From: Myxococcales bacterium
Lineage (GTDB): Bacteria; Myxococcota_A; Polyangia; Haliangiales; Haliangiaceae
Reading direction: 5' to 3'
DNA: 64,000 nt
Assembly: GCA_016794525.1 (NCBI GenBank)
Contig: JAEUJY010000062.1
Coordinates: 1 to 64,000 of the forward strand
Positions 4,536 to 14,308 of the stretch are shown here, piece after piece (position 1 is the stretch's first letter; every line of letters begins with the position of its first letter). Both the position numbers and the translations under genes were made by a program. The notes under the pieces are model-generated. The model had not been told where the DNA came from. It worked only from the letters and a program-made list of their open reading frames with translations, and did no database searches.

Positions 4536-5979
4536 GCGCGGCCAGCGCGGCCAGCGCCAGCCGGCGATCGGCGCGCGCGCGGGCCAGCGCGGCCTCGGCG
4601 GCGACCGCCTGGTCCTGGCGGATCAAGACGTCGAAGTTGGTGCCGGCGCCGGCCTGCCAGCGATCGCGCTCGAGCTCGACGGTGCGCTGGGCTAGCCGCG
4701 CGGCCTGGGTCGCCGCGGCGATCCGCCGCTCCGACAGCGCGACCGCGTCGACGGCGCGGGTGACCTCGGCGGTCAGCGCCCCGCGCAGCGCGGCGCCCTC
4801 GAGCTCGACCCGCTGCCGCGCGGCGCGGGCCACGTCGCGGCGGCCGGTGGCGGCGCGGTTGCCGACCGGCAGGCTGAACGACAGCGCCGCGCTCGCCTCG
4901 TAGCCGTCGAAGCGGCCGAGCTGCGCCCAGGCCTCGCCGGCGCTGTCGGCGTTGCCCATCGGCCCGCCGCGCACGATCAGATCGAGCCGCGGGCGGGTGT
5001 CGGCGGTCGCGACCGCCAGCTCGATCGTCGCGGCGCGGCCTTGGTGCTCGAGCGCGCGCAGCCGCGGCGCGAACGCCAGCGCGCGGGCCCGGGCGTCGGC
5101 GGTGGCCGGCGCCGCGACGTCGGCGGCCAGATCGTCGTCGGCGACCAGGCGCGCGTCGCCGGCCTCGTCGCCCAGCAGCACGCGCAGCGCGACCGCGCGG
5201 GCGGCGCGATCTTGCTCGGCGGCCAGCTGCGCGGCCTCGCGCGCGGCAATGGCCTGCTCGGCGGTCGCGACCTCGAGCTCGGCCACCTTGCCGACCTCGG
5301 CGCGGGCGCGCGTGACGCTCAGCTGATCGCGGGCCAGCGCCAGCGCGCTGGCGCGGATCTCGACCTCGCGCTCGGCGTAGGCCAGCTCCCAGTACGCGCG
5401 CTCGACGTCGTGGGCCAGCGCGACCTCGGCGGCGACCCGCGCGGCCTCCTCGGCCGACGCCGCGGCGGCGGCGCGCGCGGCGGGTGCCCCGTGGTTGGCG
5501 CGGCCGCGATCGCGCAGCAGCGGCTGCTGCCACACCAGCTCGGCGCGCGGCTGGTGCACGGTGGTGGTGATGTCGGTGACCGGGCCGCCCGCGGCGACGC
5601 GGACGCTGGTGCGCGCGACCTGCTCGGCGACCGAGACGCCGACCCGGCCGCCCCACGGCAGCGGCTGCCACAGCGCGACGTGGCCACCGACCGCGTCGAC
5701 GCCGGTCTCCTGGAAGAACGGGCCGGCCACCGGATCGGCGGCGCGGGTCAGGCCGTCGACGCCGGCCTCGAGGACGCGATCGTCGACGCCGGCGGCGCCG
5801 CGCACCTGGGCCGCCGCGCCGTCGCGGGCCGCGACCGCGGCCAGGTAGCCGGGGTTGTGGGCGCGCGCGGTGGCCAGCGCCTCGGCCAGCGTGATCGGCC
5901 GGGTGGTGTCGTCGGCGTGGGCGACGGCGGGCGCGGCGAGCGCGATCAGCGCGACCGCCAGCGCGGCGCGCGCGGTCAC
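4522..5979 (-). CDS. TolC-family outer-membrane efflux protein
   Basis: The 485-residue product starts with a signal peptide ending AHADD and then shows two Ala/Glu/Arg-rich repeats of coiled-coil character, beginning with ITLAEALATARAHNP and separated by a short beta-rich segment, the pattern of the OEP (PF02321) repeats of TolC-like channels. Conserved LxxALxxNP and GGRV-type features are visible. It is the last gene of the exporter set; its GTG start overlaps the TGA of the HlyD-type gene (GTGA). It would form the outer-membrane exit duct for the DevC/DevA/HlyD pump. Confidence 0.9.
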   Translation of the reverse strand: MTARAALAVALIALAAPAVAHADDTTRPITLAEALATARAHNPGYLAAVAARDGAAAQVRGAAGVDDRVLEAGVDGLTRAADPVAGPFFQETGVDAVGGHVALWQPLPWGGRVGVSVAEQVARTSVRVAAGGPVTDITTTVHQPRAELVWQQPLLRDRGRANHGAPAARAAAAASAEEAARVAAEVALAHDVERAYWELAYAEREVEIRASALALARDQLSVTRARAEVGKVAELEVATAEQAIAAREAAQLAAEQDRAARAVALRVLLGDEAGDARLVADDDLAADVAAPATADARARALAFAPRLRALEHQGRAATIELAVATADTRPRLDLIVRGGPMGNADSAGEAWAQLGRFDGYEASAALSFSLPVGNRAATGRRDVARAARQRVELEGAALRGALTAEVTRAVDAVALSERRIAAATQAARLAQRTVELERDRWQAGAGTNFDVLIRQDQAVAAEAALARARADRRLALAALAALTGP

Positions 5980-7037
5980 TGGCCACCGCCGATCGGCGCC
6001 AGCGCCACGTCCATGCGCAGCCCCAGCGGCAGCCGGTCGGCGCCGTCGAGCGCGACCACCACCTCGAGGACGCGGGTGTCGATGCGGGCGCGCGGATCGT
6101 CGAGCCGCTGGGTCTTGCGGCCCAGCTCGCCGAGCACGCGCACCACCTTGCCGGGGAACGCGCGATCGCCGTAGGCCAGCGCGCGGGCGGTCGCGGCCTG
6201 ACCGACCGCGACCCGGCCGACGTCGGTCTCGTCGACCTCGACCCGCAGCTCGAGGTGCGCGGTGTCGGCGAGGATCAGCACGGTGGTCGGCGGCATCGTC
6301 GTGACGTGCTCGCCGACCTCGTGCAGCCGGCGCACGATCACGCCGGCGCGCGGCGCGCGCAGCACGTGCTGGTCGAGCAGCGCGCGGGCCTCGTCGAGCT
6401 CGGCGGTGGCGGCGGCGACCGCGGCCTTGGCCTCGGCGATCAGCTCGCCGCGGGTGCCCTTCTTCACCAGCGCCGCGCGGGCGGTGGCGGCGGCGGCGGC
6501 GGCCTCGGCGGCCTCGGCCTGGCCGCGCACGGCGTCGACCTCGGCCAGCGCGACCGCGTCGGCGTTGGCGGCGTGGAGCGCGTCGGCGCGGCCGCGGGCC
6601 AGCGCGCGCTCGTGGGCGGTGGCGGCGGCGGCCCGGGCCTCGGCCTCGGCGGCGAGCCGCTCGTCGGGGCGGGCGCCGCGCACCGCCAGATCGCGGCGGG
6701 CGATCGCGGCGGCCAGGCCCGCCTCGGCGCGCGCGACCCGGGCCCGCGCGATGCGATCGTCGAGCCGCGCCAGCACCTGGCCGGCGGCCACGGCGTCGCC
6801 CTCGGCGGCGGTCAGCTCGACGATGCGGCCCGACGCCTCGAAGCCGAGCGCGATCCGCTCGCCCTGGGCCTCGACCAGGCCGGGCGCGACCAGCGCGGTG
6901 GGGGCGGCGGCGACCGACGGCGCGGCCGGGGCCGCGCGCTGCGACCACACGACGCCGGTGACGGCGAGGGCGGCGATCGCGCCGGCGGCGGTGAGCTTGG
7001 TGCGGGACGAACGGCGGGGAGCGGTGGTGGTCGTCAT
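5976..7037 (-). CDS. HlyD/DevB-type periplasmic membrane-fusion protein
   Basis: The 353-residue protein has an N-terminal membrane anchor (about residues 14-32), a lipoyl-like half (GFEASGRIVELTAAEGDAVAAGQVLARLDD), a long Ala/Arg/Glu coiled-coil hairpin (about 85-215), the second lipoyl half (HVLRAPRAGVIVRRLHEVGEHV) and a beta-barrel segment. This order is typical of adaptor subunits of DevBCA or MacAB-like ABC pumps. The ATG at 7037 has GAGG at a good distance, while an upstream in-frame extension is proline-rich and has no ribosome site. It lies 102 bp downstream of the ATPase gene and overlaps the tolC-like gene. Confidence 0.92.
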   Translation of the reverse strand: MTTTTAPRRSSRTKLTAAGAIAALAVTGVVWSQRAAPAAPSVAAAPTALVAPGLVEAQGERIALGFEASGRIVELTAAEGDAVAAGQVLARLDDRIARARVARAEAGLAAAIARRDLAVRGARPDERLAAEAEARAAAATAHERALARGRADALHAANADAVALAEVDAVRGQAEAAEAAAAAATARAALVKKGTRGELIAEAKAAVAAATAELDEARALLDQHVLRAPRAGVIVRRLHEVGEHVTTMPPTTVLILADTAHLELRVEVDETDVGRVAVGQAATARALAYGDRAFPGKVVRVLGELGRKTQRLDDPRARIDTRVLEVVVALDGADRLPLGLRMDVALAPIGGGQ

Positions 7038-7139
7038 GGGATCCTCAGGCAGGGCTGGTGGTGGCGGTGGTGTCTCGCGTCCCGGGTGGGGGCCCCGTCG
7101 GGGCATGCCCCCGACGGGGGAGGGCTCGGCGACGAGCCC

Positions 7140-7877
7140 TCAGGCAGCGTGGGGGTGCGAGATGGTGTCGACGGCGATGACCCGGCCGTCCTCGACGCGG
7201 GCGACCCGGTCGGCGAAGCGCTCGAGCCGCGGGTCGTGGGTGACGACGACGACCGCGCGGCCGTGCTCGCTGGCCAGCGAGCGCATCAGCGCCATGACGT
7301 CGAGCGCGGTCTTGGTGTCGAGCGCGGCGGTCGGCTCGTCGCCGACGATGATCGCCGGGTCGCCGGCCAGCGCGCGGGCGATCGCCACCCGCTGCTTCTG
7401 GCCGCCCGACAGATCGGCGGGCTTGTGGTGCATGCGGTTGGCCAGGCCGACCGCGGCGAGCAACCGCCGCGCCTCGGCGTCGGCGTTGCGCGCGCGCGGG
7501 TGCTTCATCTTGATCGCGATCGCGACGTTCTCCTGCGCGGTCAGCGCCGGGAACAGGTTGAAGCCCTGGAACACGAAGCCGAACGCGCCGGCGCGGATCG
7601 GCGGCAGGTCGCGCTCGCGCAGCGCGCTGACCCGCTCGCCGCGGATGAACACGTCGCCGCGGGTCGGGCGCATCAAGAGGCCGAGGATCGAGATCAGCGT
7701 GGTCTTGCCCGAGCCCGACGGGCCCTCGATGAGCAAGATCTCGCCGGGGTAGACCGACAGGTCGGCGTCGGCCAGCGCGGTGACCTGGGTGTCGCCGTCG
7801 CCGTAGATCTTGGTGACGCCGGCGAGCGAGGCGATGGGCGAGGCGATGGGAGAGGGGATGGGAGAGGTGGTGGGCAT
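7140..7877 (-). CDS. DevA/MacB/LolD-type ABC transporter ATPase
   Basis: All nucleotide-binding motifs are present in 245 residues: Walker A GPSGSGKTT, Q-loop FVFQGFNLFP, signature LSGGQKQRVAIARAL, Walker B IIVGDEPTAALD and an H-loop THD. The sequence type matches the DevA/LolD branch that powers FtsX-like permeases rather than classical importers. The first 15 residues are a repetitive SPI(A/P)SP segment from a short tandem repeat at about 7830-7870, so the start could be a little downstream. It sits 25 bp after the permease gene on the same strand. Confidence 0.93.
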   Translation of the reverse strand: MPTTSPIPSPIASPIASLAGVTKIYGDGDTQVTALADADLSVYPGEILLIEGPSGSGKTTLISILGLLMRPTRGDVFIRGERVSALRERDLPPIRAGAFGFVFQGFNLFPALTAQENVAIAIKMKHPRARNADAEARRLLAAVGLANRMHHKPADLSGGQKQRVAIARALAGDPAIIVGDEPTAALDTKTALDVMALMRSLASEHGRAVVVVTHDPRLERFADRVARVEDGRVIAVDTISHPHAA

Positions 7878-7902
7878 GGATGGCTCCGTGGGAGGCAGGG
7901 GG

Positions 7903-9024
7903 TCAGCCCTTGAAGACCGACGCGGGGTCGAGGCGCAGCACCTTCACCACCGACAGGAGCGCGGCGGCGCAGCACATCACCGCGGTGAGGATCGCGGTGC
8001 CGACCACCAGCGCCGGCGTCAGCTTGACGGTCAGGTTGGCCGCGACCATCGCGTGCTGGGCCAGCAGCGCCAGGCCGCCGCCGAGGACGAACCCGACCAG
8101 CGCCGAGATCAGCGCCTGGTAGACGATGACGCGGAGGATGGCGCTGTTGCGCGCGCCCATCGCCTTGAGCGTCCCGTACTCCTTCAGGTGCTCGAGCGTG
8201 CCGTTGTAGAGGATCTGGCCGACGACGACGAGCCCGACGATGATGCCGAGCGCGGCGGTGGTGAAGAAGCCGGCGCCGACGCCGGTGCGCGCCGACCAGT
8301 AGTGCTGCGCGCGGCCCGACATCTGCGGCGTGGTGTAGGCGTCGAGGTTGGGCAGCGCCGACAGCCGCCGCGCCAGCGCCTCGGGCGACACGCCCGGGGC
8401 GGCCTCGACCATGACGAAGTTGAAGCGATCGGCCGGGTACAGCGTGTAGGCCCGGGCGCTGTCGAGATCGGTCCACACGAACGGCGACGTGGTGAAGCTG
8501 CGGATGCCGGAGGTCAGCGCGACCACCTCGGCGCGGGCGCCGAAGATCTCGCGGCGCTCGCCGACGCGGTGGACCTTGAGCTTGGGCGCCTCGGTGATGT
8601 CGGTGACGATCGCGCCGGGTTCGCCGAGCCGGCGTACGTCGCCGGCGACCACGTGCCACGGCCGCAACAGCCGGGCGCCGGGGTCGAGGCCGATGACCTG
8701 CACGCCCTGGGTGCCGCCGTCGGCCAGCCGGAACTGGCCGAAGCCGAGCAGCATCCGCTCGGCGCGCGCCACGCCGGCCGTCGACGCGACCTTGTAGAAC
8801 GCGCGCTCGTCGATCGGCGCCGAGAAGTCGAAGTTCTCGCTGCCCTCGCCGGTGACCCAGACGTCGGCCGTCGAGTGATCGATCAGGTTCGATGCGTTCT
8901 GCATGAACCCGAGGTAGAGGCCGATCTGGACCAGCACCAGCATCACGCTGATCGACACGCCGGCCGCGGCCACCGTGAACTTGATGCGGTCGTGAAGCAG
9001 GATCTTGCGAGCCAGGGTCCACAC
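7903..9024 (-). CDS. DevC-type FtsX-like ABC permease
   Basis: The 373-residue protein has one N-terminal membrane helix (about 17-42), a large periplasmic MacB-core-like domain (about 45-245) and three C-terminal membrane helices, the second containing LVGFVLGGGLALLA. The EYGTLKAMGARNSAI segment is the conserved cytoplasmic coupling motif of DevC/FtsX permeases. With the downstream ATPase, adaptor and TolC genes it makes a complete tripartite exporter of the DevBCA kind, which in cyanobacteria exports glycolipids; the substrate here is not shown. The GTG start lies only 2-3 nt after the start point predicted from the -24/-12 promoter, so a slightly later start is possible. Confidence 0.9.
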   Translation of the reverse strand: MWTLARKILLHDRIKFTVAAAGVSISVMLVLVQIGLYLGFMQNASNLIDHSTADVWVTGEGSENFDFSAPIDERAFYKVASTAGVARAERMLLGFGQFRLADGGTQGVQVIGLDPGARLLRPWHVVAGDVRRLGEPGAIVTDITEAPKLKVHRVGERREIFGARAEVVALTSGIRSFTTSPFVWTDLDSARAYTLYPADRFNFVMVEAAPGVSPEALARRLSALPNLDAYTTPQMSGRAQHYWSARTGVGAGFFTTAALGIIVGLVVVGQILYNGTLEHLKEYGTLKAMGARNSAILRVIVYQALISALVGFVLGGGLALLAQHAMVAANLTVKLTPALVVGTAILTAVMCCAAALLSVVKVLRLDPASVFKG

Positions 9025-9036
9025 GCCCCTCGGTAG

Positions 9037-9052
9037 AGCACCTACCGTGCCG
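9037..9052 (-). promoter_or_regulatory. Sigma-54-type (-24/-12) promoter of the exporter operon
   Basis: Read on the minus strand the site is CGGCACGGTAGGTGCT, which matches 10 of the 12 defined positions of TGGCACG-N4-TTGCW, with GG and GC correctly spaced. The predicted start of transcription is near 9026, immediately before the permease gene. The adjacent regulator is an NtrC-type protein with a GAFTGA motif, which fits. Confidence 0.6.
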
Positions 9053-9103
9053 GGCCCCGGGCCGCGCGATCGCGCGCACTTGGCGCGCCGGCGCCGGCTG
9101 GCG

Positions 9104-9140
9104 GGTAACGATCCGTGGCCGCGGGTAACGAAGCGTTACC
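9104..9140. promoter_or_regulatory. Enhancer-like tandem palindromes GGTAACG-N3-CGTTACC
   Basis: A perfect 17-bp inverted repeat, GGTAACGAAGCGTTACC, occupies 9124-9140. A degenerate copy (GGTAACG-ATC-CGTGGCC) lies at 9104-9120, exactly 20 bp away, i.e. on the same DNA face. The centres are about 106 and 86 bp upstream of the predicted exporter transcription start. The same palindrome is found upstream of the response-regulator gene at 12478-12494, so it is probably the binding site of that regulator. Confidence 0.65.
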
Positions 9141-9143
9141 GTC

Positions 9144-11005
9144 TCAGGCCGCCGGCAACACGACCGAGAACGTCGAGCCTTGCCCCGGCTGCGACCGCAC
9201 GACGATCTCGCCGCCGTGGCCGCGCACGACCTTCTGGCAGATCGCCAGGCCCAGGCCGGTGCCGTCGGGGCGGGTCGTGAAGAACGGCTCGAAGATCCGC
9301 GGCAGGTCGGCGGCGGCGATGCCGGCGCCGTGATCGATCACGTCGATCGCGACGCGATCGCCGTCGCGCCGCGTGTGCAGCGTGATCGTCGCGCCCGCCG
9401 GCGACGCCTTGGCGGCGTTGTCGAGCAGGTTCCACACCACCTGCCGCACCCGCGGCGCGTCGATCGCGATCGCCGGCAGGTCGCCGGCGTGATCGCGGGC
9501 CAGCGTCTGGCCGCGCTCGTCGAGCACCGCCGCCACCGTGCGGGCCGCGTCGTCAGCGATCTCGCGCACGTCGACGGTCTCGCGGCGTAGCTGCAGCGGC
9601 TTGGCGTAGTCGAGCAGCTCGCGGACGTGGGCGTCGAGCCGGCGCAGCTCGGCCAGCGCGATGTCGAAGTACTCCATGTCGTCGGGCGGCAGGTCGACCT
9701 TGCCGCGCAGGATCTGGACGTTCATCTGCACGCTGGTCAGCGGCGTGCGGATGTCGTGGGCGATCGCCGCCGCGAACGCGCCGAGCGCGGCCAGCTGGCG
9801 CGCCTCGTCGAGGCGGGTCCGCAGCCGCTGGTGCTCGCAGGCGTCGGCCAGGCGGTCGGCGAGCTGCCGGGTCGCCTGCAGGCTCTCGCGATCGAGCACG
9901 CCCCCCGTGACCACCAGCGCGCCGTGCAGCTCGGCGCCGGTGCGCACGGCCACCGCCAGCTCGGCCAGCCCGCAGCGGCAGTCGACCGGGCCGGCCAGCG
10001 CGGCGCGCAGCTCGGCGTCGAGCTCGGCCAGCGGCACGAACCGCGCGGCGCCGCCGTCGGTGAGGTCGGTGAGGGCGCGGGTGGCGGCGGCGGCCACCGC
10101 GGCGGGCTCGTGGCTGCCGAGCGCCGGCTCCGCCGCGTCGATCAGATCGCGGCGGCGGGCCCGGCGCGGGTCGACGCCGCGCTCGAGCCGCGGCCGCAGC
10201 CGCTCGGCGCCGACGTAGACCAAGAGCGGCACCGCCGCCGACAGCATCAACAGCGGGCGCTCGATGCGCGGCCAGGTCGCGGCCAGCTTGCCTGCGCCGA
10301 GCACGCCGGCGCCCGTGAGCAACAGGCCGATCATCACGAACGCGCTCTCGAGCAGGAGCTCGCCGACGGCGCTGCGCGCGGTGAACAGGTTGGTGCGCAC
10401 CACCGCCAGGCCGACCAGCAGGAACGAGATCAGCACCACCACCGTCGACTCGACCCACAGGAGCAGCGCCCAGGTGTCGGTCGACAGCTGGCCGTACAGC
10501 GAGTACAGCGCGTTGGCGGTGAGCCAGCGCAGCGCCAGCGCGGCCAGCACCAGCCGCACGCCGGTGCGATCGCCGCTCATCCGCCGCAGGTTGCGCACCT
10601 GCAGCACCATGAACACCACCGACACCGGGATGAAGAACCCGAGGTTGAGCGCCATCGACGCGGTCAGCGTGTGGATCGTGATCATCACCGTCAGCGCGGC
10701 CGCGACCCAGACCATCAGCGGCGCCCGCCACCGCCACGGCATCGGCCGCGCGAACGGGAACGAGTAGGCGAACTCGATCGTCGCCCACGCCAGCAGCGGC
10801 GCCAGCAGCGAGCACGGGATGACCACCTCCGGGTCGAGCAGCGACGCGCCGAACAGCGAGGCGATGCCGCGGAACAGCGCGGTGGCGGCGTCGAGCAGCC
10901 CCAGCGCCGCGAACGCGCGGTTGTCCCACCGCCGCGGGTCGGCGCGCAGGATCAGCAGCGCGAACGCCAGCGCCAGCGCGCCGATCAAGATGTGCAGCGC
11001 CGGCG

Positions 11006-11009
<4 letters not shown>
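9144..11009 (-). CDS. Multi-pass membrane sensor histidine kinase (NtrB/PrsK-like)
   Basis: The 621-residue protein starts with a long run of about eight or nine membrane helices (residues 1-275), then a GAF-like soluble region (about 290-400) and a full kinase core: H-box AIAHDIRTPL (His near 418), N-box WNLLDNAAKA, G1 VIDHGAGIA, F-box FEPFFTT and G2 GTGLGLAI. The layout resembles PrsK-type kinases, which pair with NtrC-class regulators. Its GTG start overlaps the regulator stop (GTGA), so the two are co-translated. It presumably senses an envelope or lipid-soluble signal and phosphorylates the regulator; the signal is unknown. Confidence 0.92.
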
Positions 11010-12385
<1,376 letters not shown>

Positions 12386-12503: not shown

Positions 12504-13388
12504 CTACCGCGCCAGCAGCCACGCCGCCATCGCCGCCGTCAGCTCGCCCCCGCACGCCTGATCGAAGCGCGCGAACATCGGCCCGGTGTTGAGCTCGAGG
12601 AACACCAGCGCCCCGTCGGCGCGGCTCTTGAGATCGGCGGCGGCGAACTCGAGGCCGAGCTGGTGGGCCAGCGCGCGCACCTGCGCCGCGATCGGCGCCG
12701 GGCCGGCGCCCAGGTAGACCACCTCGACGTCGGGCGACGCCCGGTAGTCGAGCTCGGCCGAGCGCACCTCGAACGCCAGCGTGCGGTCGCCGACGACGAA
12801 CACCCGCACCTCGGGCGCGACCAGCCGCTCCTGGACGATCGCCGGCGCCGCCAGCACCGGCGCGTCGCCGGCCGCGGCCAGCGCGGCGTCGAGCCGCTGG
12901 GTCAGCTCGCCGCCGGCGACCGGCTTGGCGATGCCGCGGGTCGGATCGTCGCCGACCGCCGCCCGCGCGGTGGCGGCGTGGTTGGTCACGACCGTGCGCG
13001 GGATGGCCAGGCCGAGCGCGCGCGCCAGCACCAGCGTGTGCGGCTTGTTGTTCGCCGTCGCGGCGCGGTTGAAGCAGCGCACCGCGGGGTGCGCGAGCAG
13101 CCAGCCGTGGAGCGCGGTCGACCACGCCAGCGCGCGTTGCGCCGGCGCCGGCCGCGGATCGGCCAGCTGGGTGAACACGTCGTGGCGCAGGAACGCGGCC
13201 CGCGGCGCGACCGCGATCCCGTCGACGAGCAGCCGATCGTCGGCGAGGTCCCAGGCCACGCTCGGCCGCGTGGTCGCGCCGACCAGCAGCGGGCGCACCG
13301 GCGCGCCGGCCGCCGCGAGCGCGGCGAGCAACGCGTGGACGTTGGGATCGCGATCGCCGCCGATCACCAGCACCGCGTCGGGCGACAC
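12504..13388 (-). CDS. Graspetide ATP-grasp ligase (PsnB/MvdD type)
   Basis: The 294-residue protein has an N-terminal pre-ATP-grasp domain and a C-terminal ATP-grasp fold. Family marks are the NRAATANNKPHTLVLARALG helix followed by GLAIPRTVVTN, the IVQERLVAPEVRVFVVG segment, the LDYR motif, and the metal-binding FLELNTGPMF near the C terminus. These match ribosomal-peptide macrocyclases such as MvdC/MvdD and PsnB, which join Thr/Ser hydroxyls to Glu/Asp side chains of a precursor using ATP. Its GTG start shares one base with the precursor stop codon (TAGTG), so the two genes are translationally coupled. Residues contacting ATP appear intact. Confidence 0.9.
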   Translation of the reverse strand: MSPDAVLVIGGDRDPNVHALLAALAAAGAPVRPLLVGATTRPSVAWDLADDRLLVDGIAVAPRAAFLRHDVFTQLADPRPAPAQRALAWSTALHGWLLAHPAVRCFNRAATANNKPHTLVLARALGLAIPRTVVTNHAATARAAVGDDPTRGIAKPVAGGELTQRLDAALAAAGDAPVLAAPAIVQERLVAPEVRVFVVGDRTLAFEVRSAELDYRASPDVEVVYLGAGPAPIAAQVRALAHQLGLEFAAADLKSRADGALVFLELNTGPMFARFDQACGGELTAAMAAWLLAR

Positions 13389-14308
13389 TAGTACGCGCCG
13401 AACGGGCCGCCGCCGCCGCGCCCGCCGCCCCAGCCGCCGCGGGTGCGGATCCACCACGCCGGGCCGTACCAGCCGGGATCCTCGGCGCCGCCCATCGTCA
13501 CCATGCCGCCGCCCTCCTCGCCGGTGGCCATCGTCGTCGGGTCGCCGCCCTCCTCGCCGGTGGCCATCGTCGTCGGGTCCTCGGGCGCCATGCGGCCGCC
13601 GCCGCCACCGCCGCCGCCGCCCCACCGCGGGTCCTCCTCGCCGACCGCGAGCGTCGTCATCGGCGCGCCCTCCTCACCGACCGCGAGCGTCGTCGGCCGC
13701 GCGTCCTCCTCGCCGACCGCGAGCGTCGTCGGCCGCGCGTCCTCCTCGCCGATCGCCAGCGTGGTCATCGGCGGGCCTTCTTCGCCGAGGGCGAACGTGG
13801 TCATCGGCGGGCCTTCCTCGCCGACCGCGAGCGTCGTCGCCGTCGGGCCCTCCTCGCCGACCGCCAGCGTGGTCACGTCGGGCACGCGGCGGAACGTGAT
13901 CAGCCCGCCGGCGTTCTTCACGCGCACGACGTGGTGCGGGTAGCCGGGCGCGGTCAGCGCGTCGGGCGGCGTCGCCGGGCCGCTCGGGCCGCGCTCGACG
14001 TAGCTCACCTGGGTCTGCACGCCGACGAAGCCGCCGGTGATCTGGACGACCTCGACGATCTCGACCTCGTACGCGGGCGTGGGCCGGCTGCCCAGCGCGA
14101 CCGCGATCACCTTCTCGCGCTCGAAGCGCGGCTTGCTCGCCGCGAGCTGCGCCTGATCCTTGGCGTCGGTGCAGTCCTCGGCGTACTCGGCGAGCTCCTC
14201 GGCGTCGTCGATGACGTCGTTGACCGCCGCCCTGGGACCGCCGTGGCTGCGCACGACGGTGCGGAACTTCAGCGGGTGTGCCTGCGGCACGTTCGGATGC
14301 TGGTGCAC
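13388..14308 (-). CDS. Graspetide precursor with nine TTxxxGEE core repeats fused to a folded N-terminal domain
   Basis: The 306-residue product has three parts. Residues about 11-140 form a folded domain whose VIAVALGSRPTPAYEVEIVEV and YPHHVVRV segments resemble the PrcB C-terminal domain. Residues 146-265 carry nine copies of TT-x3-GEE, starting at 146, 158, 170, 182, 194, 206, 218, 246 and 258; the first seven are exactly 12 residues apart, and a degenerate tenth (VTMGGAED) lies at 270. Residues 229-238 are a polyglycine linker and 278-306 a Trp/Tyr/Gly-rich tail. TTxxxxEE is the core motif of plesiocin-type (group 2) graspetides, in which each Thr pair is esterified to the Glu pair. The GTG start follows GAGGAGG. 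The adjacent ATP-grasp gene makes the assignment strong. Known precursors are much shorter, and products of this class are typically protease inhibitors. Confidence 0.88.
   Translation of the reverse strand: MHQHPNVPQAHPLKFRTVVRSHGGPRAAVNDVIDDAEELAEYAEDCTDAKDQAQLAASKPRFEREKVIAVALGSRPTPAYEVEIVEVVQITGGFVGVQTQVSYVERGPSGPATPPDALTAPGYPHHVVRVKNAGGLITFRRVPDVTTLAVGEEGPTATTLAVGEEGPPMTTFALGEEGPPMTTLAIGEEDARPTTLAVGEEDARPTTLAVGEEGAPMTTLAVGEEDPRWGGGGGGGGGRMAPEDPTTMATGEEGGDPTTMATGEEGGGMVTMGGAEDPGWYGPAWWIRTRGGWGGGRGGGGPFGAY

Follow-up and report, generated by a model that had tools for sequence, protein, structure and literature searches.

Two overlapping genes on the minus strand of the window, a 64,000-nucleotide stretch of DNA from a Myxococcales bacterium (GCA_016794525.1, contig JAEUJY010000062.1), probably encode a distinct follower-directed graspetide system, in which the ligase would dock on a C-terminal tag of its precursor and form bicyclic hairpins on a folded head, giving what is likely a protease-inhibitor array. 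Judging from sequence and predicted fold, we put the probability of this reading at about 0.68. Four things were observed directly: how the genes are laid out, which family and fold the ligase has, that the tail type co-segregates with the ligase clade, and that short relatives lack a leader. The most distinctive feature of the system is its C-terminal PFG tag. The features of the locus are as follows:

12504..13388, minus strand: ATP-grasp macrocyclase (graspetide synthetase), 294 aa (TIGR04187, PsnB 7DRM, Foldseek)
13388..14308, minus strand: precursor gene, 306 aa, GTG start and TAG stop, from the open reading frame and its translation; same layout in the homologue at locus L031
13877..14308, minus strand: N-terminal PrcB-like domain, aa 1-144 (PF14343 PrcB_C match); no signal peptide apparent
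13634..13873, minus strand: core units 1-7, TT-x3-GEE with a 12-residue period
13514..13573, minus strand: core units 8-9, TTMATGEE twice, after a poly-Gly linker
13478..13501, minus strand: degenerate tenth unit VTMGGAED, aa 270-277
13391..13408, minus strand: C-terminal GPFGAY, proposed ligase-recognition "follower" tag; the tail type recurs in the ligase clade

The precursor and its array

An AGGAGG Shine-Dalgarno sequence, read directly from the DNA, lies at 14318-14313 ahead of the precursor GTG, and the GTG of the ligase shares one G with the TAG of the precursor (TAGTG at 13388), confirming the one-base overlap with an adjacent ATP-grasp gene that an earlier note on this DNA had reported. 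The first residues of the TT-x3-GEE units are aa 146, 158, 170, 182, 194, 206, 218, 246 and 258, giving six steps of 12 residues, one of 28 and a last one of 12. Translation and unit positions thus agree with that note's description of nine units in a 306-residue precursor, the first seven strictly 12 residues apart, a polyGly linker ahead of the last two (the 28-residue step is Gly-rich) and a degenerate tenth unit, and the TTxxxxEE core that it had named is supported. So is its fused domain, since the array follows a folded, PrcB-like head at the N-terminus, but the note left that head unnamed and did not mention the C-terminal GPFGAY.

Comparing the units of the window with one another gave 43, 14 and 86 differences at codon positions 1, 2 and 3, with 74 synonymous against 45 non-synonymous codon differences, while T, T, G, E and E were never altered. 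Because the differences are mainly at third positions and these five residues are untouched, the array is kept by selection on the protein, and is not a simple DNA minisatellite or merely a recent DNA duplication. Residue 3 of the window units is Leu, Phe or Met.

The ligase

The best NCBIfam match of the ligase is TIGR04187 (1.6e-27, yet below that model's own cut-off), followed by MvdD and MvdC. By profile, the best solved structure is PsnB, the plesiocin cyclase (7DRM, 1e-27), which is also the top Foldseek match of the AlphaFold model of the ligase (pLDDT 79; 1.5e-18, probability 1.00). K155, R195, D252, K254, E265 and N267 are invariant across the ligase clade described below and are matched in PsnB. 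The presence of a dedicated graspetide ligase beside the precursor, as the earlier note had it, is hence supported by both profile and fold. The locus holds an ATP-grasp ligase homologous to characterised macrocyclases, together with Thr donors and Glu acceptors in the known TTxxxxEE pattern. As a positive control, the analysis recovered the genuine psn locus (L004), which comes from the window's own class; there, a ligase whose tree distance from PsnB is zero lies beside a precursor with the LFIEDLGQVTGG leader and a TTLALGEE core. As the ligase is closest to PsnB by profile and fold, and this control was recovered, Thr-Glu ester chemistry of the plesiocin type is well supported as the predicted chemistry of the window system.

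One might suppose that the acidic repeat tail stays unmodified while the ligase targets something else; given that the core letters are the same in kind as those of the plesiocin-type core beside PsnB, and that the pairing of precursor and ligase recurs in 18 loci of three phyla, we give this supposition almost no credence.

A ligase clade with a C-terminal tail

Genome scans for relatives of the ligase covered Myxococcota, Acidobacteriota and Gemmatimonadota. In the resulting tree the ligases of 18 loci form one clade with 100/100 support, separate from the PsnB/LFIED N-leader clade. The clade is rare and patchy, being found in 4 of 251 sampled genomes of the window's class and, for one class of Gemmatimonadota, in 5 of the 256 sampled; a plasmid search found no ligase relative, and nothing was found in a phage-family library. 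The earlier note had placed the system in the plesiocin group, and an ordinary member of that group with an enlarged leader would indeed share the TTxxxxEE core and have PsnB as its nearest solved ligase. The fully supported position of the ligase outside the PsnB/LFIED clade, the lack of an LFIEDLGQ..GG leader and the distinct tail argue against that placement, which was not borne out and which we now regard as very improbable.

What the clade shares instead is a C-terminus. The motif [PA][FL]G-x(0-2) terminates 22 of 23 precursors at 17 of the 18 loci, with PFG proper in 17-18, a count that is slightly biased in that the precursors of L032, L034, L085 and L087/88 were picked partly by their tail. 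The commonest form is N/G-PFG-x-F/Y-stop, and the PFG endings include GPFGAY, NPFGAF, NPFGSF, VDPFGQF and ENPFGEF; the window precursor ends in GGGGPFGAY and its nearest relative, L031, in RGPFG. As background, the loose motif ends 8 of 1765 open reading frames in non-clade loci, and 2 of 744 within the window, one of which is the precursor itself. The core-bearing precursor of L078 ends in RPPPEY, lacks the tag and misfits the pattern, and L087/L088, with KT-x4-EE cores, have the weaker tail AFGEK.

In at least nine short precursors of the clade (for example MSFTTLAIGEE and MSDATTNYYGEE) the first core begins at residue 3-7, which leaves no room for a leader, so that a classical leader is impossible in them. 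No N-terminal leader motif of the Phhx(1,2)h type was seen in aa 1-144 of the window precursor, where PFG occurs at the extreme C-terminus only. That motif is usual but not universal, having been found in only about 50% of the precursors of one study (PMC8939145), and its absence is therefore no bar to graspetide membership. In fuscimiditide biosynthesis, recognition is proposed to depend chiefly on the leader motif RPFG of ThfA, and the ThfA leader still guides ThfB once engineered to the C-terminus (PMC13003496). We propose, as the simplest and best reading of these sequences, that the ligase clade is a naturally follower-directed graspetide family.

Folded heads and arrays in relatives

The head of the window precursor scores E=0.0055 and 17.3 bits against PF14343 PrcB_C, below the 24-bit cut-off, while the head of L031, 49% identical to it, passes that cut-off with 27.3 bits; the family domain thus forms the N-terminus of the L031 homologue, and the PrcB-like copy in the window, unlike the PrcB family, continues into a graspetide array. 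An AlphaFold model of the PrcB-like head, built from two sequences, reached a pLDDT of 37 and was left out of the fold search. At L031 (5037-5995, a metagenome assembly) the reading frame of the repeats shifts after the third unit, through either a mistake in the assembly or a genuine lesion.

Across the clade the folded heads are PrcB-like (window, L031), tyrosinase-like (L077), a vanadium bromoperoxidase (L078) or none. At L077 (167-1513) a tyrosinase fold is fused to the array (1e-70 to 6J2U). The CuB histidines are kept, and Y, R and N occupy the places of the CuA histidines, the copper-binding positions being those generally known for tyrosinases; given the loss of the three CuA histidines, this head is probably not an active tyrosinase. 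The head of L078, in contrast, is a complete vanadium bromoperoxidase (6.6e-98) that keeps the QK..HRRLRPE, GHA and GRN.AGVH stretches of 1QHB, and its array begins past the end of the enzyme.

These heads bear on an alternative in which the graspetide modification proceeds as proposed, but it is the PrcB-like head that, in the manner of a folded leader, recruits the ligase, and the PFG tail serves elsewhere, for example as a secretion or processing signal. Aromatic C-termini can carry sorting signals, and the 49% conservation between the window and L031 heads would agree with a recruiting head. We nevertheless hold this alternative to be improbable, as the heads are wholly different across a clade in which ligase and tail stay constant, and short members carry no head at all.

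The earlier note had described known group members as having few repeats on short precursors, and the nine repeats and fused domain as unusual. The first statement is not supported, given the headless L086, where 334 aa hold 23 strict units, and the large multi-motif graspetide precursors already reported (corallotide, groups 34/35; PMC13097080); nor are nine repeats or a fused domain unique to the window, since both recur within the ligase clade. At the small end, L007 (1168-1491) is a 108-aa open reading frame with two TTMAVGEE units behind a head of about 65 aa, and its ligase is weakly placed between the clades; a dodecin-like reading of this head was dropped, as the head matches no family.

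The clade members L037/L087 and L038/L088 have KT-x4-EE cores (EYKTMAIPEE twice), which could yield one ester and one amide. Ahead of them lie an HTH-like gene and another, of 159 aa, that matches no known family.

Proposed mechanism and function

In the mechanism that we propose, GPFGAY at the C-terminus of the precursor is the docking site for the ligase, which would use ATP to phosphorylate Glu side chains in every TT-x3-GEE unit. The Thr hydroxyls would then attack the activated Glu, forming two omega-esters and a bicyclic hairpin per unit, or up to about 18 esters across the whole array. Recognition at the C-terminus would leave the N-terminus free for a folded protein, here the PrcB-like domain, so that the product would be a folded head followed by an array of cross-linked hairpins. 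Tag docking, ester formation and protease inhibition are all inferred, and inhibition is the weakest of these steps.

Most likely the array would, like plesiocin, bind serine proteases multivalently and inhibit them, while the head would determine location or partner. Plesiocin is a serine protease inhibitor whose potency rises with repeat number (PMC13097080). The 107 strict units of the clade vary most at residue 3 (3.2 bits). T, G, E and E are fixed in them, either naturally or because the search pattern required it; at residues 2, 6 and 8 the pattern allowed alternatives, of which almost none occurred. A variable residue 3 would fit a diversified or selectable inhibitor loop.

A different role, which rivals the functional step only, is structural: the cross-linked array could belong to a coat or matrix stiffened by ester hairpins and, in relatives, oxidatively cured. 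The Gly/Trp/Tyr-rich stretches in the precursors of the window, L083 and L078 and the fusions to a haloperoxidase and a tyrosinase fold would suit such a material, as would the collagen-like properties reported for corallotide (PMC13097080). However, the tyrosinase-like head without its three CuA histidines is probably no oxidase, and those graspetides that have been characterised reportedly inhibit proteases (PMC8939145), which leaves the structural role a serious but unlikely candidate.

Beyond this locus, opinion could fall either way on whether ester cross-linking is here a form of protein modification, in which a natural family of synthetases directed by C-terminal tags equips folded proteins and enzymes (PrcB-like, tyrosinase-like, haloperoxidase) with bicyclic hairpin arrays at their tails, and these arrays may stay attached instead of being released as peptides. 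If true, a peptide natural-product pathway would have become a protein-modification system, offering ready-made enzymes that cross-link tails onto other proteins via a tag of about six residues, and mining for short leader-core precursors may miss such fusions.

Comparison with known graspetides

Plesiocin (PsnA2-PsnB, graspetide group 2) resembles the window system in its TTxxxxEE repeats and in its single ATP-grasp ligase of the same fold. The PsnB clade, however, has an N-terminal LFIEDLGQVTGG leader and short precursors with about four cores, whereas the window has a C-terminal PFG tail, a separate ligase clade and a PrcB-like head. Leaders of the LFIEDLGQVTGG type occur in L003-L006, L008, L009 and L011, and as LFIEELEEV in L056/L057, and are absent in the window. 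With the graspimiditides (fuscimiditide ThfA/ThfB) the window shares the PFG recognition letters and TIGR04187 as the family of its ligase's best match. In ThfA, though, the motif belongs to an N-terminal leader, and a single stem-loop with an aspartimide makes up the core, whereas PFG is naturally C-terminal in the window; no PIMT-type methyltransferase was found among the neighbouring window open reading frames that were scanned. Corallotide and groups 34/35/41, which were compared by description, also have large precursors, and in several of these a cross-link motif is repeated (PMC13097080), but corallotide differs in its KxxxD lactams plus hydroxylation.

In the literature surveyed here graspetide recognition is described as N-terminal, and a 2026 study that shifted it to the C-terminus presents this as engineering (PMC13003496). 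The texts searched describe no natural C-terminal graspetide recognition tag or enzyme fusion, and the clade may already bear a group number. No paper was found that links graspetides to PrcB or dodecin; the papers listed for tyrosinase or haloperoxidase contained no graspetide, and those shown for the tail and core strings contained none of these strings. The proposed logic of a follower and of fusion to proteins is the interesting part, long repeat-bearing graspetide precursors being already catalogued (groups 34, 35, 41).

Neighbourhood and other loci

Downstream of the ligase and on the same minus strand (5976-12385) lie a histidine kinase, an NtrC-type response regulator, a MacB/FtsX-type ABC exporter and an HlyD-like partner. 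This two-component system and MacB-type exporter were rejected as a conserved part of the system, as they are not conserved in relatives, and no conserved dedicated exporter or protease was found near the clade loci. A sigma-54 promoter search gave fewer matches than expected by chance, and a sigma-70-type search gave none.

Other arrangements were seen at further loci. At L018 (115-1034, minus strand) a very divergent ligase adjoins two small precursors in tandem (TTKYAIGEE, TSRYAIGEE), which have a common LREVLKLVREKLSRDAEAGCG start. In Acidobacteriota, at L056 (1238-1367) and L057, PsnB-clade ligases adjoin Cys-rich precursors with the leader RELFIEELEEVTGG and a core beginning CKCCLPTTMACCEE, in which the TTxxxxEE core is set among cysteines.
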